64,000 bases of DNA, taken from positions 1,488,001 to 1,552,000 of the forward strand of contig NC_088322.1 of NCBI RefSeq assembly GCF_910592395.1, read 5' to 3'. Of this stretch, positions 38,761 through 62,282 are shown one piece after another. Position 1 is the first letter of the stretch, and every line of letters begins with the position of its first letter. The DNA comes from Lineus longissimus (Eukaryota > Nemertea > Pilidiophora > Heteronemertea > Lineidae). The position numbers and the translations under genes are program-made. The notes under the pieces are model-generated. The model did no database searches and had not been told where the DNA came from. It saw only the letters and a list, made by a program, of their open reading frames with translations.

Positions 38761-38779
38761 TGGATATAACGGCGGATAG

Positions 38780-39150
38780 TTTCTTGGCAGCGAGTCCTTT
38801 ATATTTTCACTGACCCAAGCATGTCAATGTGGCCATTGAGGGTATCATCAGCAACTCATTTTCTGCCATCGTATGTCCCAGGGCGATCCCTGAGATCGGA
38901 TAACCAAGAGTTGTTGGTGACTCCCAGGTATCGCCTTGAGACATTTGGTGGCAGAAGCTTTACAGTTTATGCCAGCAAATTATGGAACTCGCTGGACACT
39001 AACACCCGCAACAGCTCCACCGTCAGGCAGTTCAAAAGAAGATTAAAAACCAAACTATTTGAACAGTGTTTTTGTTAAGCGCAGCTGAGCAATTTTTCTA
39101 ATTGGATTTTGCGCTATATAAATGCTATTTGTATGTATGTATATATACTT
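38780..39150 (+). mobile_element. 5'-truncated LINE, 3' end
   Basis: A + frame at 38821-39078 carries the C-terminal signature of non-LTR retrotransposon ORF2 proteins (RSLRSDN, FGGRSFTVYASKLWNSL, FKRRLKTKLF). It is followed by TAAGCGCAGC, GCGCTATATAAATGC and a TGTATGTATG microsatellite tail, as in L2/CR1-type elements. Everything upstream of this end is missing; it abuts the broken integrase. Confidence 0.8.
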
Positions 39151-42071
39151 ACTAGTACCAATTTATGGGGTTTTTATATGAGACCTTAATATCTGGCAAT
39201 TTTTTAAAACCCAGTTATGTGGCATATATATATATGAATATATACTAGTAACGTCCACAGTGTGTATATGCCTCGGAGTTATGCAAGTGTCAAATATACC
39301 ACGTTTTGGACACTAACTATTTCACTGGCTGCTGTTCGAGACAGTGAATTGTGTAAGCCTACCTCTAAATATATTTCATTGTTTCCAAAATAGGAAAACC
39401 TCACCTTCTCAAGGCGCTGTAATTGTTGGGTGTCACCTACCACTTTTATTGATTAATCTGTAAAAATATTGTATTTGTATTCTGCACCATTTTCTCCTGT
39501 TGTATGTCTTCTTGTCTTATCTGTCTGCACTGTGTTTTCAACCGATATGAATGTATCTATAGGTCCAATAAACTTAATTTGAATTATGAATTTTTGAATT
39601 TTTTGTTGAGAACAGGAACCTCATGAGGAAATGCTATCTGTGACAAAAGACAAGTATAAAGACGGCCTAACTCTCCCCTCGGGTTCTTTCTACATTGAGC
39701 CACTTTGAACTGTATTACACGCCAAGACCCGACTGAATTTCGTTTTCCGACGATAAAGAAGAATATCCATAGGCCTGTTCAGCGCTCTTCAAGATTTTTG
39801 CAGTTAAGGCGTACCGATAAAATATATATACCCCAGTATCAAAATTGCCTCCTCACTGAAAACTCTTGGATATATAATATAATGTACCATGTATGTTTGC
39901 ACCCAAGGTTATGGTTAGGGTTACTGTTGGATTGTGATGTGCTGCCATCTGACTGAGATAGTAAGACTAATTAAACGTAAAAATTGTTTGGCTATGTTAC
40001 TCTAAGGCTATATATCATACTGGTACCATATAAATCTATATATCAAGCCTGCATAAACGTATGCCTCAAAATGATATAGCATGCCACTATCAAAACACAT
40101 CAACATATAGGCCATAATTATATATGGACTACAGTTTCCATCCGAACAATTTGTCTGGATATGAACTTATTTCTAGTCTGTTTGACCATAATGTGCTGCC
40201 ATCTGGCTGAGGACAGAGGTAGCTGAACTCAGTAACAAGTTTGCCTGAATGTGGACGTCACCCCAAGGTCCTGCGAGAGAACTCAATGTTTTTCCTCTCA
40301 AAGGGCGCAACCAAACAACTCAATAATAGCCATAGTCAAAATAAAAACCCAATAAGTTGGCTCCCTAATCAACAAAACTTGGGAGGAATGATACAGAGGT
40401 TATCACTCCAGGAAGGACAAAGAGTCCTGGTTATCAATCAGGAAAGTAATTCATCAATAATTATCATTCTTCTCTTTCACAGGAATTAGGGTGGTAAAAC
40501 AGTGGGCATGTGTTAGAAGTTGTTGGCCATGACATGACAGTAAAACTTCAGTGCATTTCATAAACATTGCCTCTAACACAGGTATGTCCCAGCCAGGTTT
40601 TCAGTAGGACATATGCGTGGGAGTTCTCAGGCTTTGGGGTCGAATCCCAAACAAGTGCACATGGTCTGGAATGGATCCCCTGCACTATTTGTTTCCAACA
40701 CCGCTTTCTATCTTCCATTGAGGCTATATTTATCATTGTACAGGACTGGACAAACTCTGGACACAAGAAATCAATGAACAGCATTTATTATCAAATTAAA
40801 GCTTTTACATGTATATCACGTACATGTAGATTGCATATCTGACATATCTTAAGCAAACAGGATTAAATCATCCTAATATCAAGCCTTTGAGGTGGCACTG
40901 TCTGTATTTAAGATGGCACTTGGCCCAATATTCTCAGGACAATCGATGGTCTTACTCCACTGACCAGCAGGACACTGCTACTTTAATTGGAAGCTGCGCA
41001 ACAAAATGATTGGTAATAGACTGGACGAAACCAGAGCACACAGTCGAATATTGAATCTCCAATATGATAAAATGAACACAACCTTTTTGGAGCGAGCAAC
41101 AGATGACAGGGCTTTCATAACCTGCTATGGACGTGATTTGAAAATGTGCACATGAAATTCAGAAGTACTTGCCAAGTAAGCTCTCATTAACTTCCTCACG
41201 TTGTAATCCAACAAATCAGGATAAAATTGACCCTTGCTTATCACAAATGTAATGACAAAACATCATCCACAAAATAATTCAGCAACATACTCTGTGCTTA
41301 TTAAACAAGCCTATTATAAACCAAGAACTATTTGTGTGCCTTTTTATGTGTTTTGGGTTTCAATAATTGTGAATTACATGTAAAGTTCTATGCAAAAAGT
41401 AAGATCAAATGGAATGAAACTGAACCCTATCTCCAAAACACTATCCTAAATAGAAAAAAAATTGACAAAATGCTAAAGGTTATGCACATTTCTTGGTTTA
41501 CAGTATTGTTATAATTACTCAAAAATAATGGAAGCATTTGGCTTTTTGTTGATGACGTATTAGGAGACCGGAGTATGCGACTTGCATACCATGTTTGAGA
41601 CACACCACATCATTAATGACGTAACCACACACATTAGGCCACGAACACATCACTTCTAGTGGCAAAGACAGGTAAGTGATACCAATACCAAAATTACTTA
41701 GGTAAGAAACACAGCTTTGTGTCAGGATTTCAATGTTTTTAAGTTCAATGTAAACAAAACCCATTAGAAGATATTCACAGCAGCAGCACCAAGTATGAGG
41801 GGGTGGGGGTCTAAAACCTGTGAAAGAATATTTTAGCAACTTACAGACACCTGGCGAAATTTGTAAACATGTTCTGCAAAAGAAATTTTCATGGAATACA
41901 TTATTTCCCACCAGAGAAATATGCCCCACAACAAAGGTTTCATTTTAAGAATACTCCACAACTTGATAGTAGAACAAGACGTTGGAACTTCCTTGATTGA
42001 GCTGAATGTGGATGTAACACACTTTAGATATACCTGGGGGGGGGGGGGGGGGGGGGGCTCAGTTAGCAAAT
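39151..42071. other. Intergenic stretch of 2.9 kb
   Basis: AT-rich, TATATA runs near 39220 and 39820, with a G run of about 21 near 42037-42057. Short frames only. It includes the 3' flank of the recombinase-like gene; no clear polyadenylation signal was identified by eye. Confidence 0.5.
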
Positions 42072-44674
42072 CTAATCTTTGTTATTGTCTGCTCTCATAG
42101 CCTCGGTGGACTTTGGCAAAACGACTTTCTGTTTTCCCGTCACCAGGTTGTTCATCTTTGTTCTTATCTGAGCTGGAGTCCTTGTTCCTCCAAGTTTTTC
42201 AGCAACAGCTGCTATTTCAGACCCTGGGGGATTCTTCTTTGCTTTTATGTATTTATCCATGTACCTGAACAATATGCCATTTTCTTCTTCAGACCATCTT
42301 GCTCTCTTAGTTTTGAACATGCCGTCGTCAGTGGAAACCATCTTTCTCTTTTGAGTGCCATACTTCTGATCATCTGCAACCCCAGTAGCTGAGCAGCTTG
42401 GTTGTGGTTCTCCATCAAATGGACTGCTTCCATCGACATCATCACAAGTAAGTTCCCTGCTCTCTAACTGGTCACCTCTTTCCAGCTGATCATTTATGGA
42501 AACCGGGGGAGGAAGTTCTTCAATGTTAATGGCATCAAGTTTCTTTCCCTGGAACTTATTGATGACACCATTCTCCATGGCAATCAAAACACGTGCAACC
42601 TTTGCTCGTTCAAGCACTGAGCTTTGCAATCTGTACACGTCAGTGTGGATGTTGACATTATGGCCCATGTGGTCTGCTACCATCTTCAATTCATTGGCGG
42701 ACATGTCAATTATTTGTGCAGTGGTGGCCATGTATTTCCTTAATCCCCTGGTTCGGATACTCGCTGGATTTCTGAGCATAGGGCATTTGCTCGTTACCAC
42801 TCGGATTGCTTCACAGCCATCTATGGGTGAATTAATTTCTCTCGGTCTTGAAAACACATATGGGCTGATGATCTTCCTCTTTTTTATCAAATACTCAATC
42901 TGTTCTACCATGTCTGGAGAAAGTAAGATGAAGACTTTGCGGAGTGACCTGGTACTCTTCCCCCTCACCTCTATCAGTGCCATTCTTTTTGCCAGGACTC
43001 TTTCACTGACATCAAGAGATGCTAGTATTTCTTCATTATCCTTCTCGCTCTTTCTCCCTAGGAAGTCACTCACTTTCAACTCTTCTACCTCGCTCACTCT
43101 GCGCTTATTAAACAAGACAATTCTTGTCAACACTAGCTGACTTAGCCATTTCAGATCATCATTAGATTGGTTTGTCCTCTGCATGGCTTTGCATATAACT
43201 GTGGAGAGCCAGTCTTTCAGCCTGACCAAATCCGTTGTAGAAGGAATATTTTCGGACTTATTGATCTTGAGCAACTTCTGTTTTCTCACACTAACAGAAG
43301 CTACATGATTATTCCAATGAGCTTCATATTCTTCCTTGAAGCATCTGGCTTCTCGCTGCATTTCCTCCGAGTCTTCTCTCATGCCCAAGCTAATCTTAAG
43401 AAGATTAGCCTGTTTGATGTAATGGCCGAGCACAATCGCAAGCTGTGGGGAACCACTATCTGCTGCAAGCTGCTTAACAGTTTTCACAACTAATTTGAAA
43501 TGTCTAGCACTTAAAAAGTAGGTTAATGGTTTCCGAAGAGCCCCCAATCCTTCATTAAGGGCTTTCAGTAGTCTGCCGAGAGATCGCACCTTTTGGCGAA
43601 TGTTCATGAGATCTTTTCTCCTCTGGTCTTCGATTTCACCCACTTTACTCAGAACAGATGCAGCAAATTCCCTTATCAAGGGATCATCAAAGCATATCTT
43701 CCTAATCCCTGGGTTAGATTTGGTTTCTTTCATGGCATTGATGAGATCATCAATCATTTCACTTTCTTCGTCAGTTGAAGATGTGCGCAGAAATGGTTCA
43801 AGCATGATTCTTGCATTTCGGAGACAGTTTGTTTCAGGTTGTTCTCCACGTGGTCTGATGGGACAGTTTTTCATATGAAGCCATAGAGAATCCTTCAAAA
43901 AGAAGCCCACGCAGTATTCACATGGCAAAAAATCGTGTGCTTTTCTGTCACGTTTTTCACTTGGCCGCCTGGAAACAACAAATTCTCCCTCACCCAATTC
44001 AATGCACTTTGCATTGTGCTTGAAGTTCCCCCTATTCTGCAAAAGAAGGAGGGCATTTTTTCTTTCAACAGATTTGACAGGAGCCATGAGTGCTGATTTT
44101 ACATCCGATTCATTGCAATGAACTGCAAGATAGTGAACTGAAATCTTTGATTGGTATCGCCTCTCGCAATAAAGGCAATAGTCACTTTTACTATAATTTC
44201 TCTTTTCACTTTTGCTATCGCTGTGCTGCGGAACAGTTATGTGTGCAAACTGCATTTTCACCTTGGCCTTAAGTGCCTCCCCAACATGATCTTTCGCAGC
44301 TTCATTTAAATCCATGTCTACACTGTCTGCACTATTTTCCAAGTCACTGCATTGTCTCTTTATATCGCTTTTACCATCTCTGTACCGTGGAACACTTTTC
44401 TTTGCCTTATGTTTCTCCCCATGATGATCATCAGCTTCGTTGCAGTCCATGGCTTCATCATCTGCACTATTTTCAATGATCACAGTATCAGATTCAGAGT
44501 CACCATCCGAGTCCGTTAAATCATCGTTCGGTCCCTGCTTATAATCAGGATCCTTTACAGAATCATCGTCATCATCATGTTCATCGTAACCAACTGTTGA
44601 ACCATCACTCTCTGTGGCATGTCCAGAATCCATTGAGGTTTCAACATCAGGTTCATTATCTTTATTCCAATTAG
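42072..44674 (-). CDS. Terminal exon: zinc-finger, tyrosine-recombinase-like and SANT/Myb-like protein
   Basis: An 867-codon open exon, acceptor TGTATTGCAG at 44675, phase 1 in, TAG at 42074-42072. Numbered from the Met at 44633: residues 1-110 very acidic; C2H2-like motif Cys153, Cys156, His167, His172; CCHC-like motif Cys238, Cys241, His253, Cys257; charged helical region 330-480; tyrosine-recombinase-like core 495-670 with Arg511/512 (NKRRVSEVEEL), Arg632 (RGLRKYMATT), His655/His658 (ADHMGH) and Tyr667 (HTDVYRL); acidic hinge 700-770; SANT/Myb-like 779-832 starting RARWSEEENG. Recombinases of this fold cut and rejoin DNA through the Tyr; the Arg/His/Tyr set appears kept, but activity is unproven. 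If the upstream exons are not used, the Met at 44633 could start an intronless protein. Confidence 0.85.
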
Positions 44675-47600
44675 CTGCAATACAGTGAAGAAGACAGATT
44701 AAAAGACAAGTGCAGAAAAATTACCCAATGAGGTGGAGAGTGATTGCTCAGGATGGGCAAATGAAATAGTTCATTTAGCTGAAATGGGAACCATTATAAT
44801 GCCATATTTGCCAGCAAAACTAACCAGCACAAAAATCCACCATTCATTATCAATCTCTGCTCACTTTTAACTCTTTTGCAAGCACAATGCTCTAACCTTC
44901 TGCTTAACCGCACCCGGTACACTTTCCAGGCATCCTCGGATCCGGGCCTTCTCAGGGAAGTTTTAGGTCAACACATGCACATAACATGTAAATACATGGA
45001 AGTGGAGATCATAATTGTGGGGCCTTAGCAGTTTATATATGTCCCACACCTGAACTATGCCCCAAATGTAAGTCTCTCTGTCAGGGGCCAAGGTTCAGCA
45101 ACCATAAAACAGTATCTCTACCCTTGAAATTGAATGTAAAACTAGATTGCCAGATACTCATCGTCCCAGAACCAGGTCATACACTGACTGACCATGTATC
45201 TTTGTAATGACAGCAGGTAGTGTGTGGACTCATTTTGCTCGATGATTAACTCCCTCTAGTCTACAGACACAGGATGCCCCTGGCCGAGTTCACCAATTAA
45301 TCGAAGTACCTGTTGCTTTCACATGATCACATGGTCATGAAAGCGGTGAAAACTACAACCAAGTTTCCATTGTTGGTGATTCATGCGGAAATAAATCAGA
45401 TGCTATCTATTCTCCTTTGAAAAGGTTTACACCACTGGCTAGGATTTAGTACTAGGAATGTCTCTGGTTAGGGTGAGACAGATCACTCAATAGTGCAAAA
45501 GCATTCTGATGGCAAAAAAGACTGAAGGCCACGGTGAACCTGCCACGGCAACAGAGAGGATGAGCAAACCATTCAGCGAATGTAAGGTGAGTTATGTGCA
45601 CGAGGGAATTGAGGAAATCTTGCTGGTAGACAATATCAAGTGGAATGAAATGGCCAGGGCCATTGTGCTCACCTCATGTGGAGGAAAGATGGATAAAGAG
45701 CATGGTATTGTGTCATGTAGTGTTAGGTTTGATGTAGGTCCAAGCAGTTACAATTTCCCCAAAATGGCCAATTTACAGTACATTCGACCTCTGTGACCTT
45801 GAAAAGTAGGTCAAATCAAAGAAGACCCGGGTGACACATTGAATGGTTGTTAGAATTAGATGTACCTATGATATAAAATTGGTGCCAATCGGGCAAGTCA
45901 TTACTAGGAATAATAGCATTTTGAAGAATTTAGGATTTGGCCCCCTCCCTGGAGGCCAAACGGCAAATCAGATCGCACCAAACTTCAGTACCTGAGATCA
46001 CCTGACCAAGGGGTACATGTGTACTTAATTTGTGATCAATAGTCATTGCAGTTAAGAAACGTGCCATAGTTACGGCCTGACGGCGAATTTACGCCATTTG
46101 ACCTCTGTGACCTTGACAAGAAGGTCAAATTAAAAACCTGTGTGACATATACTGTATGGTGGTTAGATATACCCATGATATCAAATTGGTGGCAATCGGG
46201 CAAGAAGTTAAGGAATAATCACATTTTTAAGGTTTTTGGATTTTGCCCCCTGGTGGTCAAGTGGTGAATCATATTGGACCAAACTTCGGTCCCTGAGATC
46301 ACCTGACTAAGGGGTAAATGTGTACCAAATTTGGTATCAATAGTCATTGCAGTTTAGAAACGTGCCATCGTTACATCCTAACGGCCAATTTACACACCAT
46401 TTGACCTCTGTGACCTTGAAAAGGAGGTCAAATCAAAAACCCGGAGGATATATGATGCACCTTTGCTAGAAGTACCTACCATATTTTTTTCAAAATTTCC
46501 CGACTACTATTAAGGGAGATATTGCATATTTTCACTTTTAACGTTTGGCCCCCTGGTGGCGAAACCATGAAACGAATCGGACCGAAACTTGGTCTCCAAG
46601 GTGTCATTACATAAGGGTACATGTGTACCAAGTTTCAACTCAATAGCTCTAACAGTTACGAAACGTGCCCTGCTAACGGACGACGGACGACGACGACGAC
46701 GACGACGGACGACGGACGCCACGGTATGGGATAATCTCACCTCTGCTAAGAGGTGAGCTAATGAATGGATGGAATGGGGTAACCAACCCATTAAAACCAC
46801 TGTCCAGCTCTTGATCGTGGATGAATAGAAATGACAACCTCAACAATGCCCTAGACACGAATTGGAATACATCTTTGAGAGAGAACCCACAATTGTTATA
46901 ACAACAGATGTATCCATCAGGGGAGATGACACAGCATGGGGTGGAATAGTCTGGAAAGAAGGCAATACCGTTTTTCAGAAGGTTAAGTGCTACAAGACAC
47001 CCTAGTCTGGTTGTCACGTAACACGAAGTTATATGAAATGTCCAGGGGACATTGTGCTCACCTGGGAATGATTAAGTGGGAGACAGTATTCAAGGCCTAC
47101 ACCCCCTAAAATTCAAGGTAGAATGTAACCATGACAACACAAATTGGAATCAAGATTAATTGGCGATGATTTTTTGTATGTCAAGTCATGTTGTTATGAG
47201 ACATCCACACACCAAGTTTCAACTTCCTAGGCTCAAAGGTAAGCAAGCGTGCCACCATCATTGTTGACGGACGACGATGATGCCGACAGACTGCTGTGTA
47301 CATAGCCACTTCGAACAAAAATACCTGTAGACCTAATGGAATGTCCAATTAACTTCTAAGTAAACAAAGGGCTAGCCCAGGAGGCGAGATCAAAATTTTG
47401 TGGCCAATTGTCTTTTCTCTGATACATACTGGTAGGCCTATGGATATAATATATCATTTAAGTGCTGGCCGATGGCATGATGGAAAAATCTAGAAGGTTG
47501 GAGAAGAAAGCAGAGTAGAGATGTGCTTGCTTCATGTCTAATAGTCTTGCTGATGAGCGAGCACCCATCGCAAGTGCAAGAGTTGATGTAGGCACATGGC

Positions 47601-50600
47601 TAGGGCAATTAGGTTAAACCACATTTGGATTGAAAAGGTGATCACAGGCACAGATCTATGATAACCATTCTTCCCTTTGCAGATACTTCTTTTAGCAGGA
47701 CACCCTCTCTACTAGGGGCAGTAGTGATGGTCCCAAATTGAATAAATTCTATACAACTTGACCTCTGTAATCAGGACACCACCCTATTAAGGACAGCATT
47801 TCTCAGTTGCAGAGGTGTCCTTTTTCAAATAGAGAGGATCTGCTGTTTGCCACTCTGACTGCTCAATATAGCACTCAAAAACTAACTCACCATGTGTGTC
47901 TTCCAGCTCCTCATCAGGGCCATCAATGTCCAGATCATCTACAGAGATGCCAGCAGAGGCTTCCAATGGTTGCTTTTCAACTGAAAATATTATAAACTCT
48001 AAATAACAAAACAGTGAAATGGTCAAAGCATTTATGGTAATCTTTCAATGAATGAAACCTTCCTTGTGGGGCATTTCCAAATGTGGGGCATATATCGGTA
48101 ATGGGTGGTTAAAAACACAAGGGCCACAAAGGTCTGGAGCTCAACTGAAGCAGTTGAGACAATAGGTGTAATTATTGGAACTTCCCTTTGCAGACACCTT
48201 TCTTAGCAGGACAGTCAGTCCTGTGTACAACTAGGGGCAGTAGTGATGGTCCCAAATGGAATCATTTATATACAACTTGACTTCTGTAATCAGGACACCT
48301 CCCTATCAAGGACAGCATTTCTCAGTTGCAGAGGTGTCCTTTTTTAAATAGAGAGGATCTGCTGTTTGCCACTCTGACTGCTCAATATAGCACTCAAAAA
48401 CTAACTCACCATGTGTGTCTTCCAGCTCCTCATCAGGGCCATCAATGTCCAGATCATCTACAGAGATGCCAGCAGAGGCTTCCAATGGTTGCTTTTCAAC
48501 TGAAAATATTATAAACTCTAAATAACAAAACAGTGAAATGGTCAAAGCATTTATGGTAATCTTTCAATGAATGAAACCTTCCTTGTGGGGCATTTCCAAA
48601 TGTGGGGCATATATCGGTAATGGGTGGTTTAAAACACAAGGGCCACAAAGGTCTGGAGCTCAGCTGAAGCAGTTGAGACAATAGGTGTAATTATTGGAAC
48701 TTCCCTTTTCAGACACCTTTCTTAGCAGGACAGTCAGTCCTGTGTACAACTAGGGGCAGTAGTGATGGTCCCAAATTGAATCATTTCTATACAACTTGAC
48801 CTCTGTAATCAGGACATCTCCCTATTAAGGACAGCATTTCTCAGTTGCAGAGGTGTCCTTTTTTAAATAAAGAGGATCTGCTGTTTGCCACTCTGACTGC
48901 TTGATATAGCACTCAAAAACTAACTCACCATGTGTGTCTTCCAGCTCCTCATCAGGGCCATTAATGTCCAGATCATCTGCAGAGATGCCAGCAGAGGCTT
49001 CCAATGGTTGCTTTTCAACTGAAAATATTATAAACTCTAAATAACAAATCAATGAAATGGTCAAAGCATTTATGGTAATCTTTCAATGAATGAAACCTTC
49101 CTTGTGGGGCATTTCCAAAATGTGGGGCATATATCGGTAATGGGTGGTTTAAAACACAAGGGCCACAAAGGTCTGGAGCTCAGCTGAGGCAGTTGAGACA
49201 ATAGGTGTAATTATTGGAACTTCCCTTTGCAGACACCTTTCTTAGCAGGACAGTCAGTCCTGTGTACAACTAGGGGCAGTAGTGATGATCCAAAATGGAA
49301 TCATTTATATACAACTTGACTTCTGTAATCAGGACACCTCCCTATCAAGGACAGCATTTCTCAGTTGCAGAGGTGTCCTTTTTTAAATAGAGAGGATCTG
49401 CTGTTTGCCACTCTGACTGCTTAATATAGCACTCAAAAACTAACTCACCATGTGTGTCTTCCAGCTCCTCATCAGGGCCATCAATGTCCAGATCATCTAC
49501 AGAGATGCCAGCAGAGGCTTCCAATGGTTGCTTTTCAACTGAAAATATTATAAACTCTAAATAACAAAACAGTGAAATGGTCAAAGCATTTATGGTAATC
49601 TTTCAATGAATGAAACCTTCCTTGTTGGGCGTTTCCAAAATGTGGGGCATATATCGCCCATATTATCGGTAATGGGTGGTTAAAACACAAGGGTCACAAA
49701 GGTCTGGAGCTCAGCTGAAGCAGTTGAGACAATAGGTGTAATTATTGGAACTTCCCTTTTCAGACACCTTTCTTAGCAGGACAGTCAGTCCTGTGTACAA
49801 CTAGGGGCAGTAGTGATGGTCCCAAATTGAATCATTTCTATACAACTTGACCTCTGTAATCAGGACATCTCCCTATTAAGGACAGCATTTCTCAGTTGCA
49901 GAGGTGTCCTTTTTTAAATAGAGAGGATCTGCTGTTTGCCACTCTGACTGCTTAATATAGCACTCAAAAACTAACTCACCATGTGTGTCTTCCAGCTCCT
50001 CATCAGGGCCATTAATGTCCAGATCATCTGCAGAGATGCCAGCAGAGGCTTCCAATGGTTGCTTTTCAACTGAAAATATTATAAACTCTAAATAACAAAA
50101 CAGTGAAATGGTCAAAGCATTTATGGTAATTTTTCAATGAATGAAACCTTCCTTGTGGGGCATTTCCAAAATGTGGGGCATATATCGGTAATGGGTGGTT
50201 TAAAACACAAGGGCCACAAAGGTCTGGAGCTCAGCTGAAGAAGTTGAGACAATAGGTGTAATTATTGGAACTTCCCTTTTCAGACACCTTTCTTAGCAGG
50301 ACAGTCAGTCCTGTGTACAACTAGGGGCAGTAGTGATGGTCCCAAATTGAATCATTTCTATCCAACTTGACCTCTGTAATCAGGACATCTCCCTATTAAG
50401 GACAGCATTTCTCAGTTGCAGAGGTGTCCTTTTTTAAATAAAGAGGATCTGCTGTTTGCCACTCTGACTGCTTGATATAGCACTCAAAAACTAACTCACC
50501 ATGTGTGTCTTCCAGCTCCTCATCAGGGCCATTAATGTCCAGATCATCTGCAGAGATGCCAGCAGAGGCTTCCAATGGTTGCTTTTCAACTGAAAATATT

Positions 50601-53600
50601 ATAAACTCTAAATAACAAATCAATGAAATGGTCAAAGCATTTATGGTAATCTTTCAATGAATGAAACCTTCCTTGTGGGGCATTTCCAAAATGTGGGGCA
50701 TATATCGGTAATGGGTGGTTTAAAACACAAGGGCCACAAAGGTCTGGAGCTCAGCTGAGGCAGTTGAGACAATAGGTGTAATTATTGGAACTTCCCTTTG
50801 CAGACACCTTTCTTAGCAGGACAGTCAGTCCTGTGTACAACTAGGGGCAGTAGTGATGATCCCAAATGGAATCATTTATATACAACTTGACTTCTGTAAT
50901 CAGGACGCCTCCCTATCAAGGACAGCATTTCTCAGTTGCAGAGGTGTCCTTTTTTAAATAGAGAGGATCTGCTGTTTGCCACTCTGACTGCTTAATATAG
51001 CACTCAAAAACTAACTCACCATGTGTGTCTTCCAGCTCCTCATCAGGGCCATCAATGTCCAGATCATCTACAGAGATGCCAGCAGAGGCTTCCAATGGTT
51101 GCTTTTCAACTGAAAATATTATAAACTCTAAATAACAAAACAGTGAAATGGTCAAAGCATTTATGGTAATCTTTCAATGAATGAAACCTTCCTTGTTGGG
51201 CGTTTCCAAAATGTGGGGCATATATCGCCCATATTATCGGTAATGGGTGGTTAAAACACAAGGGTCACAAAGGTCTGGAGCTCAGCTGAAGCAGTTGAGA
51301 CAATAGGTGTAATTATTGGAACTTCCCTTTTCAGACACCTTTCTTAGCAGGACAGTCAGTCCTGTGTACAACTAGGGGCAGTAGTGATGGTCCCAAATTG
51401 AATCATTTCTATACAACTTGACCTCTGTAATCAGGACATCTCCCTATTAAGGACAGCATTTCTCAGTTGCAGAGGTGTCCTTTTTTAAATAGAGAGGATC
51501 TGCTGTTTGCCACTCTGACTGCTTAATATAGCACTCAAAAACTAACTCACCATGTGTGTCTTCCAGCTCCTCATCAGGGCCATCAATGTCCCGATCATCT
51601 ACAGAGATGCCAGCAGAGGCTTCCAATGGTTGCTTTTCAACTGAAAATATTATAAACTCTAAATAACAAATCAATGAAATGGTCAAAGCATTTATGGTAA
51701 TCTTTCAATGAATGAAACCTTCCTTGTGGGGCATTTCCAAAATGTGGGGCATATATCGGTAATGGGTGGTTAAAAACACAAGGGCCACAAAGGTCTGGAG
51801 CTTAGCTGAAGCAGTTGAGACAATAGGTGTAATTATTGGAACTTCCCTTTGCAGACACCTTTCTTAGCAGGACAGTCAGTCCTGTGTACAACTAGGGGCA
51901 GTAGTGATGGTCCCAAATTGAATCATTTCTATACAACTTGACCTCTGTAATCAGGACACCTCCCTAAGGACAGCATTTCTGAGTTGCAGAGGTGTCCTTT
52001 TTTAAATAAAGAGGATCTGGTGTTTGCCACTCTGACTGCTTGATATAGCACTCAAAAACTAACTCACCATGTGTGTCTTCCAGCTCCTCATCAGGGCCAT
52101 TAATGTCCAGATCATCTGCAGAGATGCCAGCAGAGGCTTCCAATGGTTGCTTTTCAACTGAAAATATTATAAACTCTAAATAACAAAACAGTGAAATGGT
52201 CAAAGCATTTATGGTAATTTTTCAATGAATGAAACCTTCCTTGTGGGGCATTTCCAAAATGTGGGGCATATATCGGTAATGGGTGGTTTAAAACACAAGG
52301 GCCACAAAGGTCTGGAGCTCAGCTGAAGCAGTTGAGACAATAGGTGTAATTATTGGAACTTCCCTTTGCAGACACCTTTCTTAGCAGGACAGTCAGTCCT
52401 GTGTACAACTAGGGGCAGTAGTGATGGTCCCAAATGGAATCATTTATATACAACTTGACTTCTGTAATCAGGACACCTCCCTATCAAGGACAGCATTTCT
52501 CAGTTGCAGAGGTGTCCTTTTTTAAATAGAGAGGATCTGCTGTTTGCCACTCTGACTGCTTAATATAGCACTCAAAAACTAACTCACCATGTGTGTCTTC
52601 CAGCTCCTCATCAGGGCCATTAATGTCAAGATCATCTGCAGAGATGCCAGCAGAGGCTTCCAATGGTTGTTTTTCAACTGAAAATATTATAAACTCTAAA
52701 TAACAAAACAGTGAAATGGTCAAAGCATTTATGGTAATCTTTCAATGAATGAAACCTTCCTTGTTGGGCGTTTCCAAAATGTGGGGCATATATCGCCGAT
52801 ATTATCGGTAATGGGTGGTTAAAACACTAGGGCCACAAAGGTCTGGAGCTCAGCTGAAGCAGTTGAGACAATAGGTATTCATACATCACCCCCTATCTTA
52901 CATAAATGAAATGGTCCTACACCAACAATGGCATGAAGAGGAGAGAATCACCAATGGACAATAACTGCTGTATTTGTACTGGTACCAAGTTTGAGGTGTG
53001 AAGCGACAGTCAGGTAGTGGTCACAAAACATACACTCTTTGTCCAACGAGGTTGCTGTTTCAGAAGACTTTGACCTCAGTGACCTTGAAAAGTAGGTCAA
53101 ATAAAAACCCAAAAGATATGTGATGTACCCTTGCTAGAAGTACCTACTACCGTACCATATATTTTTTCAAAATATTCGAACAAGTATCAAGGGAGATATC
53201 GCACATTTTCACTTTTGACATTTGATGGCTCCCAGGTGGCCAAACTATGAAGCATATAAGGCCGCAGTACGGTCTCCGAGTAGGGGTCATTCAGGGGCAC
53301 ATTTGTACCAAGTTTCAGTTCAGTGACTTTTGAAACGTGCCACCCATGTCTAACGATGGATCCTCTGTCATGGTATTAAAAGGCTCACATGAGAACACTT
53401 GCGCAAACCTGAGAATAGTGTTTCGCTGATTAAGTGTCAGACAGTGTTCGTTTTGTGCTTGCCATCTGTGATTTACTGGCTATCAAGTATAAATATGCTA
53501 TTGTAAAAGCATATCAATTGTGCCTGACAAAGTGTTACATGTGTTTAGCACTGGCAGCAACTGTCCCATCCATGACAAATCACAGTTCAAAATATTTTTA

Positions 53601-56600
53601 TCTTTATATACCTTCCTCCAGATTGTTACTGTCAGGTCTATTCTTTGATTTTTTAAACTTCACAAGAAGGATTTCGGCACTCTTCCTTGTTTCTTCATCG
53701 TGACTCTTTGTACACTGTAAAAGATAGGACAGGATTTCCCAGAAATTTTCTCGAACTTCTTAATTTTGCAGCCTTTGCGGAATGATGAATGGAGTCGAGT
53801 GGAGTATCCTCCAATCTAAATGAAGCGCGGGAGTCTACCAGTACCAGAACTGGTAATTTTATTACCGGTATTGTTTTTTTGACGTTCGGTCGGGTCATGT
53901 GGCTGATTTGTGCTAAACCTTTTATTCAACCTCTGCAATTGGAACAAATAACACTGGGCATGACCCCTTAGTATGGGCACATAAATCGATACTGAATCCA
54001 GATTCGTTTTACCTGGGTGCATTAGCGTAGCTTTTTCTCTCAAGCTTTATTGCACGAGAAGTGTGTTTAAGACAGTTCATTATGTTTACATCAGAATCAG
54101 ATCTGAATGCATTCCTTTCATCTGCCATCTAAATGGCCCTTTTATGACTCACCTCGTTAAATGTTAACAAGAGTTGAGGGACATCTTCGAGGCCAATTAA
54201 AAATTCTGGTGTTGCTTCTATTTGTTGGATTATCATACTTAAGGTCCTCCTGGTAAAGAGTTTTGCCTGCAAGTACAAAAAGGTTAGGTATGATTATAAA
54301 ACTAAACAGAATTAACAACTTTTGATAGGCTTTGTGGAGCGGAAATGTTGACTATAAATGCTATAATTGCCAATGCCTATGAGATTACTTTTTTTCGGAC
54401 TTAACTTTAAATTTTATGTCAGTGTTCAGGCTAGCTGATCATGACCATTAGTGGAGTTGTGGACATTCGGATGATTCATTCGGACTACATTCTCTGATCC
54501 AGAGGAATGATAATTTTGAGGGTTGAGGGTGGGGTGGAGGACGACTACGGTCGTCGGGAAGGATGGTATGAAGTGGCGCTGTGGTATCTCCACTGAAGCC
54601 GAGACTACCACAGTCTCTCTTCAGTGGAGATAACTAAGCATGTATTCATCTAGGGTTATACTGCTTTAGATCTATAGAAGCAACAATGAGTGAATAAAGG
54701 AACACGATCGCCTAGCTTACCCGCTATTTGCGATTCACGATTTAAGGGGAGCTTTGCGAACATTGTTGGGGAAAGAGGGTCTGTGCCCGCAAGGCGAGAA
54801 CCACATACTCTTCTGGCATTAACGAATCGAAACAAAACGATGCAATGCGATATTTGGCAGATTTGCCAGCAAAACGTAAATGGGCCAGTAGACAAAAAGT
54901 AGAAGTCATAAGTGACCCGATTTCGGCTCAGATGTTTCTGGGTAGTTTTAAATGCTCGCTGTGAGTGTGACTACGCATAATGCAAAGCAGTGTGGCTCTA
55001 ATCTACTGACTCTTTAAAACTAAAGACTATAAATAAATAAAGGTCAGACACTGACCTGTTCAACTCCTTCGGCTCCCTGTTGGCTAACGCAAATGGCATG
55101 GCTGATGTCATGATTGAGCTGGATTAGAAACAGCCTCCCTGAAAGTGAAGAGCCCACTAGAATAGAATATTCACACCAGGCAAACTGCATGAAGTACCCA
55201 ACCAGAACCGATACCTTTGCTAAAGCTAGCCGCAGACAGACGAATAGCGCTCAGCATTATTTGGCACAGCATATTGCAAGTTGCTTGCGTCGGGAAGCGC
55301 TGTCCAGAAGCACTGTGCATGCGGATGACTTGCAACTCGGGCTAAGCTGTTTTCAAAAACACCGATTTGTGGGCTTTTATGCACGACTCATCACATGTGG
55401 CGAGGGCGGCATAAACAAATCATGTAGCGCCGGAAGGCACAATCTGATTGGCACCAACATTATGTCACCGCTAGGGATTGTAAATAATGCCACAATAATG
55501 CCACAATGCGCAAGCAACCACAGACAGCTTGTGGCTGAGCCAACAAATGCTGTGCCAAATATTAAACTGATTTGATTTTAGAAATACGGCTGTGTCATGC
55601 TGTGCAAGCTGGAATAGCACGGAGCCATCAGATTCAGAGACAGGCATTTTTTTGTGTCTCAGCCAATTTGAATATGGCTGTGCTAAATTAAGTAATGCTG
55701 AGCACTACAGTATATGTGTCTACAGCTAGCTTTAGCAAGGTGGGGCACAGCATTGGACAAATTAAATGGTGAGCTTTTATCAGTTCGGCAAAAGTGATTA
55801 TAATACAACGTTGTGTTATTCAACAACTTTGCGTTGTCATAAAGTGCAACATTGTTTTTTATGACAACGATAACGTTGTCACTTACTGCAATCTTCAGCT
55901 TCCGGTACCATCGGAGCAAGGTTATCCTCATCGGAAAATTGCCTCCTGTTTCATAGAGGGCAGCACAATATTTAACATCGATCAACCCAAAGTAAATTTT
56001 GAGTTCTACCAAGGATTTTTCGAATTTTGGACGATATACTAGTATCAGTTTTATCACTTAAAATGTTCTTGAAATCTGTTTTGCCTGCAAGTACAAAAAG
56101 GTTAGGTATGATTATAAAACTAAACAGAATTAACAACTTTTGATAGGCTTTGTGGAGCGGAAATGTTGACTATAAATGCTATAATTGCCAATGCCTATGA
56201 GATTACTTTTTTTCGGACTTAACTTTAAATTTTATGTCAGTGTTCAGGCTAGCTGATCATGACCATTAGTGGAGTTGTGGACATTCGGATGATTCATTCG
56301 GACTACATTCTCTGATCCAGAGGAATGATAATTTTGAGGGTTGAGGGTGGGGTGGAGGACGACTACGGTCGTCGGGAAGGATGGTATGAAGTGGCGCTGT
56401 GGTATCTCCACTGAAGCCGAGACTACCACAGTCTCTCTTCAGTGGAGATAACTAAGCATGTATTCATCTAGGGTTATACTGCTTTAGATCTATAGAAGCA
56501 ACAATGAGTGAATAAAGGAACACGATCGCCTAGCTTACCCGCTATTTGCGATTCACGATTTAAGGGGAGCTTTGCGAACATTGTTGGGGAAAGAGGGTCT

Positions 56601-59600
56601 GTGCCCGCAAGGCGAGAACCACATACTCTTCTGGCATTAACGAATCGAAACAAAACGATGCAATGCGATATTTGGCAGATTTGCCAGCAAAACGTAAATG
56701 GGCCAGTAGACAAAAAGTAGAAGTCATAAGTGACCCGATTTCGGCTCAGATGTTTCTGGGTAGTTTTAAATGCTCGCTGTGAGTGTGACTACGCATAATG
56801 CAAAGCAGTGTGGCTCTAATCTACTGACTCTTTAAAACTAAAGACTATAAATAAATAAAGGTCAGACACTGACCTGTTCAACTCCTTCGGCTCCCTGTTG
56901 GCTAACGCAAATGGCATGGCTGATGTCATGATTGAGCTGGATTAGAAACAGCCTCCCTGAAAGTGAAGAGCCCACTAGAATAGAATATTCACACCAGGCA
57001 AACTGCATGAAGTACCCAACCAGAACCGATACCTTTGCTAAAGCTAGCCGCAGACAGACGAATAGCGCTCAGCATTATTTGGCACAGCATATTGCAAGTT
57101 GCTTGCGTCGGGAAGCGCTGTCCAGAAGCACTGTGCATGCGGATGACTTGCAACTCGGGCTAAGCTGTTTTCAAAAACACCGATTTGTGGGCTTTTATGC
57201 ACGACTCATCACATGTGGCGAGGGCGGCATAAACAAATCATGTAGCGCCGGAAGGCACAATCTGATTGGCACCAACATTATGTCACCGCTAGGGATTGTA
57301 AATAATGCCACAATAATGCCACAATGCGCAAGCAACCACAGACAGCTTGTGGCTGAGCCAACAAATGCTGTGCCAAATATTAAACTGATTTGATTTTAGA
57401 AATACGGCTGTGTCATGCTGTGCAAGCTGGAATAGCACGGAGCCATCAGATTCAGAGACAGGCATTTTTTTGTGTCTCAGCCAATTTGAATATGGCTGTG
57501 CTAAATTAAGTAATGCTGAGCACTACAGTATATGTGTCTACAGCTAGCTTTAGCAAGGTGGGGCACAGCATTGGACAAATTAAATGGTGAGCTTTTATCA
57601 GTTCGGCAAAAGTGATTATAATACAACGTTGTGTTATTCAACAACTTTGCGTTGTCATAAAGTGCAACATTGTTTTTTATGACAACGATAACGTTGTCAC
57701 TTACTGCAATCTTCAGCTTCCGGTACCATCGGAGCAAGGTTATCCTCATCGGAAAATTGCCTCCTGTTTCATAGAGGGCAGCACAATATTTAACATCGAT
57801 CAACCCAAAGTAAATTTTGAGTTCTACCAAGGATTTTTCGAATTTTGGACGATATACTAGTATCAGTTTTATCACTTAAAATGTTCTTGAAATCTGTTTT
57901 TGTCAACTAGTAGTTGTATTTATACAATGGTTGTTCAGTCAGCCGGCCACACGCCGTTTTTCTGTCATAAAGACGCGATTCTCTGACCACTGCGACAGTG
58001 GCGGCTCCTAGCGGGAGATCGTGCCATAAAAAAATCGTAATAAAAAATCGTAATAAAAACCTTGCACCACAACAAGTGTTTGATAAAAGTATGATACCAT
58101 TTTTACAGAGGTTGATATTGATACCATTTATAACGATAAATTGATATTTCAAACTTGGACAACCATATTTTTCATCTTCTATTCAGGTGAAGAAGCGCAA
58201 ATATTCAAAAAAATTTTATGTCAAATTTGGGGGGCCAACCCCGTCTTAAAACGCCGAATTGAAATTAATCACTGTCTTTCTTCACCTATATTTTGTTTTA
58301 TAGATAAGCTAAGGTCATTATAAATCTATCCCATGCGGCTTCATGGGTTGTTTGCAGGATTGATAGAGATAACAAGCAATTTCCAAACTGTGCCAAATCA
58401 CGCAAAATTGCCACCTAAAATTATGTTGAGTAGCAAAAAATGACGTCAGAGTGGTCAGAGAATTCACCTGAAAACAGCCCGTGGCCGGCTGACTGTGTTG
58501 TATAATACAACTATTATGACAACGTTCTATTATAAGCACTTTTGCCGAACTGTTAAAGCTGAATTGATTATCTGAATATTAATAATGCACTGTTGTCAGC
58601 ACTCGGATCATGCTCGTCACATCAGCTTCTCAAGAAGACCAGTTTCTAATGCTACACTTCTCTATGCCAAAATGCATTTTTGGGATGCATCAAAAATCCC
58701 AGCTAGAGCTCTATAGGGGGCAGTTGCCCTGAATATCCTGATTATTTTTCATTAGGGCCTTTATTTGGGGGTACCATGCCAAAACTATTACTTGTACTTA
58801 CAGGAATCAACATCGTCAATGGTTTTTCCTGGCTCCTGAAATTAAAATGAGTCCAATAAACTAGTGCTCACAAGTTCAAGCGTTTTAAGGATAAAATATC
58901 TTCAAGCTGGGAAGCTGGGTTAGTGTCAACCAAACTATCTACTGTGCACAATCCATTTGTCCGGGCCGTAAGTTCAGAAGTATTACGAGTATGAGTATTC
59001 CAGTTTAATAAACAAAAAAACCAAAAGAATCAATCTCCCAACTGAACACACATTCAATTTGACAATGTTGTCATCTACAGGTGCACAGGTGTCATCTTAC
59101 TTGTAAATTTACCAGATTCCCGGCCTAGGAACGACACAAGGGGAAGGGAGCCACCAAGCGTCTTAGGGGGGTAAACTAGACAAAATTGATTTACAGAAAA
59201 TGTGAAAATCTGCGGGAATATAACCACCCATACTAATCATCTTTGGATCCACAACATACCTTTCTCCACTCCAAATCCTTCTCTCCGTAATCATACGCAA
59301 CTTCATCCCCTTTCTGTATTTCTTTTGTGGAATACAGGCAGAGATGAGGCTGACCATTTGTTACCATCTTCTGCACTTTGGCATTCCTCTCCCTCCCTTT
59401 GGCATCATTCACTAGTCTCGCCAGGCACACTTCTGAAGTGGCATCAATGCTGAGAAAATCGACAGAAATCATTTGTAATCATGGTGGAAGATGATGATTT
59501 TTGGTACGGCAGATTGTACTTAACCCCATGAGCTTGCTTAACTTGCCAAACGGCAAGCACAAAATCGCCATAATTTTTTCCAAACTCACTGTTTGGCAAA

Positions 59601-60498
59601 CGCAAATTTTCTAGTCATCTATAGTCTGAAGTCACACATTTCCTTGTACATGTTCCATGTGTAAACAGCTCAGGCTGCACCTGTAGTGTTTATTGCACAG
59701 TTTACTGGATTCAAAATGACGGAAAGACCCATGTACGCTAGTCACTACTAGTGTCGATAGCTTGGCTAATCAGCGCTAGTGTCAGTGTGATTCCAACCTT
59801 TAAGCTATCCAAAAGGCAATCATGTCATATGTATTAAAGAACTGCCTTACCAGCATTCTTTTCCACGGTGGGAAAAAAAATATAGATAGTTGCCCAGTTG
59901 CCTTTTTTTGTACTGGAGCCCTCTACGGTCACCCTCATCACTTGTAATGAGTTCGCCAGAGTACCGCAGCAGAAATGTTCCTGATTTTATATCGTGTGTG
60001 GCAGTTATACCTCTACCTGAAAATGTACAATTTTGAAGGAATAGGCCGAATTGTAGTTAGACACTTTCTGATGCCTGTTGTATGGTTGTAAACATATCCC
60101 AAATTTCTTCATGGGGCATTAGGGTAAAGACTGACTTTAGACTTAAAACTTTCAGAAATATGTTTGGTTTGTGCACTTGGATTAAAGATGTTCTTTGTCC
60201 AGAATCACAACCTGTATGACCTGAAATGAATGATGCAAATGAATTTGAAAATGTGCTTCTTCCTATCCATGCACTTGATTGGGGACAACGTTTACATAAC
60301 GTAGTGTTGGCCGTCGTCATGTCACCATGCATTTTACATTACCGTGACACGACATCTTCGAAATGTTTTCCCCAATCAAGTGCATGGATCTATAATCCTA
60401 CCTTTTCTCGGACCAAAAAAATTCATTTGGAGACTACAACAATCCAGCATTTCCTTCTTTTCAAAATCAGCACCATTTTCACCTCGCCTTCCCCTCGT
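42072..60498 (-). CDS. Composite gene model: SET domain + acidic exon array + tyrosine-recombinase-like + SANT
   Basis: Exons in transcript order with phase out: 60498-60402 (1), 60016-59851 (2), 59449-59260 (0), 58835-58802 (1), 56956-56874 or its copy 55138-55056 (0), 54266-54153 (0), 53714-53612 (1), ten 90-nt exons between 52677 and 47891 (all 1/1), and terminal exon 44674-42072 entered in phase 1. Every junction has AG and GT and every phase agrees, which is unlikely by chance over this many exons. The protein would join a SET methyltransferase domain, short helical linkers, up to 300 residues of acidic repeat, zinc-finger-like motifs, a tyrosine-recombinase-like domain and a SANT/Myb domain (about 1,430 residues). 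A start codon and first exon were not found. I infer one gene; two adjacent genes or a mobile element with introns are alternatives. Both the SET subtype and the zinc-finger/recombinase block resemble, from memory, repeated uncharacterised proteins of fish and marine invertebrates. Confidence 0.7.
44675..47659. other. Large intron between exon array and terminal exon, filled with interspersed repeats
   Basis: Contains the GAC-rich repeat at 45650-46765 and a third partial copy at 47040-47300 (CATTGTGCTCACCTGG, GACGGACGACGATGATGCC). No exon was recognised. Confidence 0.6.
45650..46765. mobile_element. Non-autonomous interspersed element with internal repeats and a (GACGGAC)n end
   Basis: It begins GGCCAGGGCCATTGTGCTCACC and ends in CGGACGACGACGACGACG, GCCACGGTATGGGATAA and a hairpin CTCACCTCTGCTAAGAGGTGAG. 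Between are three diverged blocks of about 330 bp, each with TTGACCTCTGTGACCTTGA, CCTGAGATCACCTGAC and AAACGTGCCAT. Elements with such ends are familiar repeats of marine invertebrate genomes. No protein frame. Confidence 0.75.
47660..52880 (-). repeat. Tandem array of ten about 520-bp units, each with a spliceable 90-nt exon
   Basis: Units are spaced 519, 519, 520, 531, 520, 520, 531, 517 and 520 bp. Exons are 47891-47980, 48410-48499, 48929-49018, 49449-49538, 49980-50069, 50500-50589, 51020-51109, 51551-51640, 52068-52157 and 52588-52677. Each has acceptor ATATTTTCAG and donor CATG|GTGAGT, phase 1/1 and exactly 30 codons (VEKQPLEASAGIS, V/A, DDLDI, D/N, GPDEELEDTH). None has a stop. The whole unit, intron included, is almost identical between copies. 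The 531-bp spacers carry an extra ATCGCCCATATT-type piece. Splicing any number of units keeps the frame and only changes the length of the acidic repeat. Confidence 0.92.
53050..53390. mobile_element. Single-block copy of the same interspersed family
   Basis: Shares TTTGACCTCAGTGACCTTGA, CCAGGTGGCCAAAC, TACCAAGTTTCAGTTCA and GAAACGTGCCACCC with the copy at 45650-46765. It ends AAAGGCTCACATGAG. Lies between the exon array and exon 53714-53612. Confidence 0.7.
53612..53714 (-). CDS. 103-nt linker exon preceding the exon array
   Basis: Acceptor TATCTTTTACAG, donor GAGGAAG|GTATAT, phase 0 in and 1 out, coding a Lys/Glu-rich stretch (SHDEETRKSAEILLVKFKKS). Its phase-1 end fits every copy of the 90-nt exon array. 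Confidence 0.7.
54153..54266 (-). CDS. 114-nt linker exon
   Basis: Acceptor TTGTACTTGCAG, donor AACGAG|GTGAGT, phase 0/0. The other two frames are closed. Codes a helical stretch (TLSMIIQQIEATPEFLIGLE, then DVPQLLLTFNE). No domain recognised. Confidence 0.7.
55056..55138 (-). CDS. 83-nt exon, copy 1 of the 1818-bp duplication
   Basis: Acceptor CTTCACTTTCAG, donor GAACAG|GTCAGT, phase 1 in and 0 out, coding RLFLIQLNHDISHAICVSQQ and seven more residues. Because it enters in phase 1 and leaves in phase 0, joining it to its twin at 56956-56874 breaks the frame, so only one copy can be used per transcript. Confidence 0.7.
56874..56956 (-). CDS. 83-nt exon, copy 2 of the 1818-bp duplication
   Basis: Identical to 55056-55138, including the splice sites. 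It lies upstream in transcript order. Confidence 0.7.
57599..58552. mobile_element. Foldback/MITE-like element with CAGTTCGGCAAAAGTG ends
   Basis: The left end CAGTTCGGCAAAAGTGATTA (57599) and the right end, read in reverse, CAGTTCGGCAAAAGTGCTTA (58552) are inverted copies. A second inverted pair lies inside (CAGTCAGCCGGCCAC at 57936 and its inverse at 58481-58495; TTCTCTGACCACT also inverted). The border of the 1818-bp duplication (57897) falls inside, so the left end is also present once more at 55781. Confidence 0.7.
58802..58835 (-). CDS. 34-nt linker exon
   Basis: Acceptor TTTTAATTTCAG, donor TTCCT|GTAAGT, phase 0 in and 1 out, coding EPGKTIDDVDS. It bridges the SET exon (phase 0) to the duplicated exon (phase 1). 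Confidence 0.65.
59260..60498 (-). CDS. SET-domain exons (KMT5A/set8-like lysine methyltransferase)
   Basis: Three exons (60498-60402, 60016-59851, 59449-59260) code a nearly complete SET domain, which transfers methyl groups from S-adenosylmethionine to lysine. Motifs in order: GRGITATHDIKSGTFLLRYS (SAM-binding RGxxA and the YxGE strand), LGNYLYFFSHRGKE, CCIDAT, RLVNDAKGRERN (the NHS-type motif, here ND), PHLCLYSTKEI, and GDEVAYDYG with the catalytic-site Tyr. It ends LEWRK before a GTATGT donor. Short spacing without pre-SET cysteines fits the KMT5A/set8 group. The sequence before GRG (GADFEKKEMLDC) lies on the first exon. Function is inferred; histone H4K20 would be the family's classic substrate. 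Confidence 0.85.
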
Positions 60499-62282
60499 CT
60501 GTATTAAGAAAAGAAAGTTCAGAATAAGTATTTATTGATAATCGAAATATGGGAAACTGAATCATAGGGCAGGTTGAAATTAGAGGTGGACAGAAAACAG
60601 AGCATAGGTGAAGCTCCCGATGTGCGCCGCCCAACCGGGGTCAGGTGGCCCTCCCCAGACATGCCAGAAATATTTGAATTTGAGAAGGCTCTATATGCGA
60701 TTTCCAAGCATCTGAGAGTGAGACCCAATTTCTATGTTGTTTTATCTGGAAAAAAGCAAATACGGCAGCCTGCTGCGTTGTTAAAGTGAAAGCGGTGCGT
60801 GCTGGGACTGGGAGACCAAATACTTCATCGATGATACGCAGCGTATCGGGTAAATAGCCCGTAGATAATTTATGCGGAGTGATCGTTGCGCCACCAAACA
60901 ATTTCCTGCCGCGGTCAAATATAGAACTACAAGTACTGTAGCCGTGGTAGCACCACAGGCAAGATATAGGCAATGCCGCCACCCTGACCCCAGGGGCCGC
61001 CATCCCAAGGAGGGGGCTTTTTGGGGCCACCACCCCCAACATTTTTTTTTTTTTTTTTTACTCATTTTTGGTAATTGAGGTGGCCGCACAAAATTTAGTT
61101 CCAAACACAACCAATGAGGGATGTTGGCCTTGTCCTGAATCTTTTATTCTTACCATTTCGAGTACATGCCACAGCAATAACTTATTGTTGATGCAACAGT
61201 AATAGGATTGACATCCCAGTGTCAATGAGCCAATCAACAGCCAGAAGAAAGTCATCAGTATCAAAAAAACAAATGCAGTTTAATCCGTGGTATTCCAAAT
61301 CGGTGAAGTCATATTCTTTATCTGAGAAACGTTGGTAGCTTGCAATGTACTCTTCTGGTTCAAGAAATAAAATCAGCATGGTTCTAACTTCTACACTGGT
61401 CGTTCGGGCGTGGCCAGGCATAGCTGAACACTACATCATATGACCTTGTATGCTAAATCACATGCATGCTCCGCGCATTGTGTGACATCCATATGACCAT
61501 GCATCACTCGCGGGAGAATGAGAAGGTGTGGGCAAAGGGCTTGGATACGGGAGAGGCCTACATATAAAAGTGGGCCGTCCGAAATTATGGGGTTAGCCGA
61601 AAGTTTGACGTCTGTAAGCGGTATTCATAGATCTGTAGTGAGTTGACCCTACAATAACTGACTGAGCATTGAGACAGCAGCCGGCCTCGCCCTCGCCCGG
61701 CCTCGGCCATGTCGGCTCGTTTTTTTGACACATTATTGAAAAAGGTGCATTAGGCCTAGGCTAAGGCCCTACTTTTCGATTAAAAAACATTATGAACATA
61801 CCGCAGAGGATTTGATTGTTATCATCGTCAGGCCTATGGCACATATTAAACAGATGGCTATATAAACAATCAGGAGCATAACCAAAACTTACCTTCATGC
61901 TGCTTCGTACTTCCATATTAATTGGATGCATGCATCGTGTTCGAGTGGGAGAGTCGCGGGGATCGTCTCATTATCTTGCCAGGTAAAAGCTAAATGGAGG
62001 GGGCCGTCTCAAACAGTCAAGCGTGTTTTGATGCAAAAAACGAAGTGACTTCATCTGGTTATGGAGCTAGCTCATTGTAGCTCCACTGTAGGTCCATTGT
62101 CTATTATAGAGGGAATTCGCGATTTGGGAAGTCAGCTATATACTTCCATGGGCTATGGGCAATGGGTCTTTTTACTGGGTCTATAAACCTATACTTATAG
62201 GCTTAATAGTAGGCTATACAAAGTCTATAATTCGGGAAGGAAGAAGTGAAGTTGTTTTTGTTTATTGCTGACTGACTTCACC
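60499..62282. other. Presumed 5' region of the SET gene
   Basis: No first exon with a clear start was identified. A minus frame 61421-61182 (79 codons, MPGHARTTSVEVRTMLILFL...) ends in TAA and has no recognised domain. A minus frame with SLSDAWKSHIEPSQIQIFL follows an acceptor-like TTTTTTCCAG near 60755 but has no clear donor. A T run of about 18 lies near 61043-61060. Confidence 0.4.

Follow-up and report, generated by a model that had tools for sequence, protein, structure and literature searches.

An exon array of variable length in a large, probably mobile tyrosine-recombinase element of Lineus longissimus

The 64,000-nucleotide stretch of the Lineus longissimus genome analyzed here (contig NC_088322.1, positions 1,488,001 to 1,552,000; hereafter the window, numbered from its first letter) contains ten copies in a row of one short exon encoding an acidic peptide, which raises the question of what kind of gene carries such an array and what a change in copy number would do to its product. 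We consider it probable that the array is a tandemly amplified linker exon in a gene carried by a large tyrosine-recombinase DNA transposon that has been mobile recently. The element occupies 39140..64000 of the window on the minus strand, with its 3' end at ~39140 and its 5' end at ~65588, beyond the window, as set by the homology limits of eight copies. The main surprise is the domain chain of the predicted protein together with the frame-safe change of exon number, by whole units, between copies of the element.

Comparison of the units placed the array, made up of ten units of 517-531 bp, at 47670..52876 on the minus strand, and the exon chain and repeat analysis placed the ten 90-nt exons at 47891..52677. 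In gene order, the first five exons lie at 52588-52677, 52068-52157, 51551-51640, 51020-51109 and 50500-50589 and the last five at 49980-50069, 49449-49538, 48929-49018, 48410-48499 and 47891-47980; counted upward from 47891, the start-to-start spacings are 519, 519, 520, 531, 520, 520, 531, 517 and 520 bp. All ten are preceded by TTTTCAG, followed by GTGAGTTAG, and stop-free in phase 1/1; the original prediction had described these ~520-bp units, the 30-codon exon and its splice sites and phase correctly, with exact coordinates. The encoded peptide, VEKQPLEASAGIS(V/A)DDLDI(D/N)GPDEELEDTH (DDR replaces DDL in one window copy), has a net charge of -9 in its A/N form and -10 in its V/D form, in keeping with the acidic repeat that had been proposed. 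It had also been claimed that splicing any number of these exons preserves the reading frame, and this holds: the exon upstream of the array ends in phase 1 and the exon downstream starts in phase 1. The further claim that no copy contains a stop is true of all ten, but because the copies are recent it amounts to nearly one observation rather than ten independent ones. Only 17 distinct substitutions occur among the 53 copies of the exon found in the genome, among which 0.5 stop-making changes would be expected, and the probability of seeing no stop without any selection is 0.60; a 90-nt stretch of the element is open in a given frame with a frequency of 0.24.

The original prediction had treated the array as a feature of one locus, which the genome contradicts. 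A unit-length query identified eight dispersed places, all 53 exon copies found fall inside the elements at these places, and a genome search with expectation values (E) up to 10 found no acidic repeat outside them. Because the unit occurs at eight dispersed places, we regard its host as a mobile element and have dropped the idea of an ordinary host gene with an acidic repeat. An assembly artefact was thought unlikely, given that the eight arrays differ interpretably in unit order and length (reads not inspected). The homology of the other copies (named C5, C6, C8a, C8b, C9, C10 and C11) to the window copy ends at ~65588 and at 39136-39140 where these limits were reached, and the flanks seen differ between copies. 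Elements with both ends located measure 26.4 kb (window), 33.0 kb (C10), 22.1 kb (C9), 22.6 kb (C8b) and 29.0 kb (C6), and nested inserts, an 1818-bp tandem duplication and the array itself are among the sources of these differences in length. Inspected by eye, the left end reads TAT/AAATACATTATC in seven of the eight copies (homology of the eighth, C8a, starts a few tens of bases inside), and the right end reads GTAAG/TATATA in six (the 3' ends of C11 and C5 were not reached). AT runs border both ends, and TAT is the only sequence common to all left ends seen (C6 reads GGATTAT). No inverted repeat between the element ends was seen by eye.

When aligned non-exon DNA was compared, leaving out the array, a variable number tandem repeat (VNTR), a nested repeat and part of the duplication, the copies fell into group A (window, C10, C8a and C6), 0.38-0.42% from the window copy, and group B (C11, C9, C8b and C5), 1.3-1.5% from it. 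We read this as an element that has probably been mobile recently, its transposition being inferred from the dispersed copies; its movement would rely on the recombinase for both excision and integration. All copies retain their introns, and this speaks against an RNA intermediate.

The eight arrays contain ten units (window), eight (C5), seven (C8b and C10), six (C6) and five (C8a, C9 and C11), and that of C10 is split by an insert of ~5.7 kb. With units typed by allowing at most two differences over about 260 bp, the group A arrays read ABCDEFDEDG (window), ABCDHDG (C10), ABCDEG (C6) and ABEDE (C8a). C10 and C6, the main aligned blocks of which are 99.6-99.95% identical, have arrays one unit apart, and the window and C10 differ by three units if H is an E cut by the insert. 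Near-identical copies of the element differ by whole units. Unequal recombination or replication error would produce such changes, with the 520-bp units gained or lost whole, and every change would keep the frame because each exon is symmetric; the predicted recombinase would shift by 30 acidic residues per unit, from 1287 to 1437 residues. Unit number does vary, from 5 to 10, but the variation documented here is among eight copies of one genome, where change between individuals had been foreseen. The alternative splicing that had also been foreseen is unsupported so far.

The predicted gene (all exons on the minus strand) begins with a short exon 1 (61893..61916; ATG, encoding MEVRSSMK), for which the ATG and a GT donor are present in all eight copies. 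The SET region starts in exon 2 (60402..60498; extended in frame by 3 bp in all four group B copies) and continues in exon 3 (59851..60016), encoding the first part of the SET domain, and exon 4 (59260..59449), encoding the second part, the open reading frame (ORF) of which matches the Pfam SET family at 1.5e-06 by itself. Exon 5 (58802..58835) encodes EPGKTIDDVDS, and exons 6 (56874..56956), 7 (54153..54266) and 8 (53612..53714) encode the start, middle and end of a helical domain; the junctions from exon 4 to exon 8 (4-5, 5-6, 6-7 and 7-8) recur in the protein P0019, discussed below. From the ATG at 61916 the phases run 0/0, 0/1, 1/2, 2/0, 0/1, 1/0, 0/0 and 0/1, followed by 1/1 ten times, and the last exon (42072..44674) is entered at phase 1 and closes with a stop at 42072, giving a predicted window product of 1437 residues. 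The chain is open in seven of the eight copies, with AG and GT at every junction, and encodes 1287, 1288, 1288, 1317, 1347, 1348 and 1437 residues; in the eighth, C5, the fetched stretch yielded no 3' part of the last exon. The 1818-bp tandem duplication (window ~54280-57916) doubles exon 6, with the second copy at 55056..55138, and each group B copy has one stretch matching both window copies.

Between groups, coding exons diverge by 0.67-0.76%, compared with 1.3-1.5% outside exons, and no window exon position is gapped in the other copies, compared with 110-168 positions outside exons. The recombinase exon contains no stop or indel across the eight copies, as far as it is present, and its ratio of nonsynonymous to synonymous substitution rates (dN/dS) is 0.20-0.39 between groups. 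Within groups, where changes are few, the ratio lies between 0.06 and 1.05 (the window versus the rest of group A gives 0.78), and three pairs have no synonymous change. In a protein search, the last ORF matched LOC135494501 of Lineus longissimus at 99%.

In order, the predicted protein comprises a KMT5A-type SET domain, a helical domain, n x 30 acidic residues and a tyrosine recombinase. The joined exons match PF00856 over its full length (1-105/105) at 2.2e-16, and the 14 best PDB matches of the SET region are all KMT5A/SETD8, with an alignment over 116 residues, which points to a complete SET domain closest to KMT5A. The LINHSK of KMT5A/SETD8 reads LVNDAK in the element, and methyltransferase activity is uncertain because this alignment replaces the Asn-His pair by Asn-Asp. 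The TFIIS N-terminal domain (TND) is a four- to five-helix fold. The structural model of the helical domain matches that of LEDGF/p75 (6zv0), with which fragments of catenin, armadillo and other helical-repeat proteins tie; the domain is perhaps TND-like, only a lead because model confidence there is low (~45-69). The last exon encodes the tyrosine recombinase of the element. Its C-terminal region contains a confidently modelled helical block, at ~811-860 of the structural model, and a sub-threshold Myb/SANT-like match (0.011), and DUF3504 gave no match for 17 members of the recombinase family at E <= 0.05.

Are the array exons used? Under the interpretation we favor, they would be spliced in, and the linker would serve as a flexible acidic spacer between the chromatin-facing domains and the recombinase. 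Several results weigh against it. P0019 (NCBI name LOC135488563, taken as a gene prediction), the sole annotated protein found across the site, splices exon 8 to the last exon and includes no array exon; it begins at an ATG inside intron 3, and its end lies short of the recombinase fold, after the first 156 residues of the last exon. The start of P0001 falls within the last exon, no annotated Lineus protein was found that joins SET and recombinase, and PF00589 gave no match to the window recombinase protein and fell below the Pfam cut-off for its relative P0002. Constraint on the array exon does not measurably exceed that on its introns: nucleotide diversity (pi) is 0.022 in the exon, 0.027 in the upstream intron and 0.043 in the downstream intron, segregating sites number 16/90 in the exon and 78/410 in the introns (P=0.88), and the exon has no excess of synonymous change (6/61 versus 11/206, P=0.23). 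This comparison left out the upstream flanks of C10_1 and C6_1 and the downstream flank of C10_5, which border foreign inserts; an apparent strong constraint, at first considered as selection on the exon, nearly vanished once these flanks were removed.

The array could be a silent VNTR that expanded like a minisatellite within an intron of the transposon gene, its exons being skipped or nearly so and the protein lacking the acidic repeat. This would accommodate the direct junction in P0019, the lack of constraint above that of the flanking introns and the stop-free copies, which chance would give. It fits less well with the splice signals, TTTCAG and GTGAGTT being intact in 53 of 53 copies (a weak argument in young copies), with phases that all fit, and with P0020, an NCBI-named protein of a sister subfamily, which includes a linker exon at the equivalent site (and stops short of the recombinase fold). 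Near-identical exons pose difficulties for gene prediction and short reads, so that absence of the exons from a gene model is weak evidence. We judge a silent array to be unlikely, and inclusion of the array exons in the protein to be likely on the splice signals, the phases and the linker exon in P0020. A protein search for the 30-residue repeat, which had been suggested for related species, returned three Lineus longissimus proteins, none with the repeat (candidates of ~280-890 residues; not exhaustive), and a second search of 7987 candidates sharing most words (~790-2514 residues) returned none at E <= 0.001, again not exhaustively.

The sister subfamily indicates how the array could have arisen. 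It has five places with a single linker-exon match each (C12, C16, C1, C3 and C20, the last holding a TGA), with recombinase matches at 56-63% at C16 and C1 among the matches listed. In C16 the splice sites delimit a single 129-nt phase-1/1 exon between the helical exon and the last exon, the same place as the window array, and the C1 copy shows the same linker-exon match. We take the 129-nt and 90-nt linker exons to be one by descent, on the basis of place and phase, not sequence. The C16 and C1 copies may be decaying, the frame of C16 being broken near the start of its last exon and that of C1 interrupted by a TAG. Because the repeat was found only in the eight elements and the sister subfamily has a single linker exon, the amplification seems to belong to the array-bearing subfamily, in which a single phase-1/1 linker exon would have been multiplied together with its introns. 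In the sister element on C1 (G000 C1:15986958-15995771), several upstream exons occur twice, ~5.1 kb apart, and the linker exon once. Among related recombinase proteins, P0002 (Dreissena) has DYVQDDVD-type tandem peptide repeats before the recombinase and P0015 (Patiria) has 31-residue ETPESSTSTGFVREFGEPFKPNNANAVAQDR-type tandem repeats after it; repeat expansion may recur in this family.

Each window unit also carries, in its intron, the motif TGAAACCTTNNNTGTGGGGCAT, antisense to the gene (48053..52771, plus strand; seven exact and three with two mismatches in the window), and the motif recurs 130 bp beyond the last exon's stop codon (41921..41942, minus strand). A search of the 391-Mb genome gave 55 exact occurrences of the motif, compared with zero for a backward-read control pattern. 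By coordinates, the eight elements hold 54 of these: near the 5' end in 7/8, ~130 bp past the recombinase stop in 7/8 and in 40 of the 53 array units. The only exact one outside the eight elements (G000 C9:10728617, plus strand) lies 10 kb upstream of a 46% recombinase relative. Its core, TGTGGGGCAT, occurs 23 times in the window element (17 of these in the array) and once in the ~57.5 kb outside, and near the element 5' end it faces ATGCCCCACA as an inverted pair. As the intron of the unit carries the motif of the element 5' end, the array multiplies a terminus-like site along with the linker exon, and the motif may be a candidate site for a protein of the element.

These counts could also mean that the thing multiplied is a putative binding site for an element-encoded protein, with the exon as a passenger. 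We regard this as improbable, for the exact motif is missing from 13 of the 53 units and carries two mismatches in 3 of the 10 window units, and two 8-kb sister-subfamily stretches (L036 and L037) each contain a single core but do not match the longer pattern. That a host gene was segmentally duplicated, an idea suggested by the host-like chromatin domains and many introns, is highly improbable against homology that stops at the same two positions where reached, flanks that differ, an encoded tyrosine recombinase and at least 64 matches to recombinase relatives scattered over the genome. Returning to the amplified linker exon, a more speculative extension, which we hold to be rather unlikely, is that the transposon tunes its own recombinase, each unit change shifting the number of acidic linkers and of internal terminal motifs together, insertion by insertion.

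Among known systems, the element resembles Cryptons in its enzyme and its ends, which have neither long terminal direct repeats nor terminal inverted repeats visible by eye and abut short AT runs, as in Cryptons. DIRS/Ngaro retrotransposons carry a reverse transcriptase and RNase H; a Pfam scan of ten other ORFs of the element gave no match (not every frame was scanned). As far as the main text considered describes them, Cryptons are tyrosine-recombinase DNA transposons for which a circular intermediate has been proposed and, in several groups, direct repeats of 4-6 bp are reported, while animal Cryptons yielded neither terminal repeats nor a C-terminal domain (Kojima and Jurka 2011, PMC3212892); a search of that main text found neither 'SET domain' nor 'tandem repeat'. 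The element differs in being 22-33 kb long and multi-exon, and in having SET and helical domains before the recombinase and an expandable exon array. DUF3504, the domain of known Crypton recombinases, gave no match here. Because its placement is not settled, we call it Crypton-like and do not file it as a Crypton.

The transposase of SETMAR/Metnase is of the DDE type, and the likeness there lies in a SET domain fused to a transposon-type enzyme; the SET domain of the element is instead of the KMT5A type, inside the element and joined to a tyrosine recombinase. SETMAR/Metnase is itself, in the part of the source consulted, a host gene with an inactive DNA transposase (PMC8704517). The array resembles tandem exon duplications, as outlined in the portion of PMC9013439 consulted, in that head-to-tail copies of one exon lie in a gene, duplicated with introns and preserving the frame. 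It differs in that its copies are near-identical, symmetric and up to ten in number, lie in a transposon gene and vary in number between gene copies; picking any single one would yield nearly the same protein. In the titles and abstracts covered, with subscription papers and Repbase outside coverage, we found no description of an element combining SET and tyrosine recombinase. P0017 (Carassius), a fish protein with SET and recombinase, may be degenerate or host-adopted because its alignment lacks the catalytic-tyrosine column.

Other features of the window and the copies were noted. Within the element, a tandem repeat of 64/210-bp units near the 5' end (62282-63634) differs between copies, and a 1.1-kb repeat is nested at 45644-46761. 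Further copies of this repeat lie in the first array unit of C10 and C6, on the upstream side of that unit's exon, in C11 close to window position 61740, and next to C9 but outside the element. Just outside the element, on the minus strand (35686-37254 and 38465-38806), lie an ORF matching an OTU-type cysteine protease (5.2e-12) and, near it, an ORF with a weak integrase-core match (0.019), and the stretch 34386-37179 recurs inverted where the homology of C11 to the element stops. Farther away lie a minisatellite of ~163 copies of a 23-bp unit with strong strand skew (19443-23188) and a plus-strand ORF matching the DDE_3 endonuclease domain (3390-4085; 7.4e-07).

In a single large animal transposon, the predicted protein unites a tyrosine recombinase with a SET domain of histone-methyltransferase type and a helical domain like those of chromatin readers, which bears on how large animal tyrosine-recombinase elements reach or alter chromatin. 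Exon number within a transposon gene changes here between near-identical copies while the predicted gene stays open in seven of eight. If the element does tune itself, insertions would differ from one another both in protein length and in their dose of cis sites. If the array exons are used, a single genome would hold recombinases whose linkers vary naturally from 150 to 300 residues, in which the role of an acidic linker would be directly testable.

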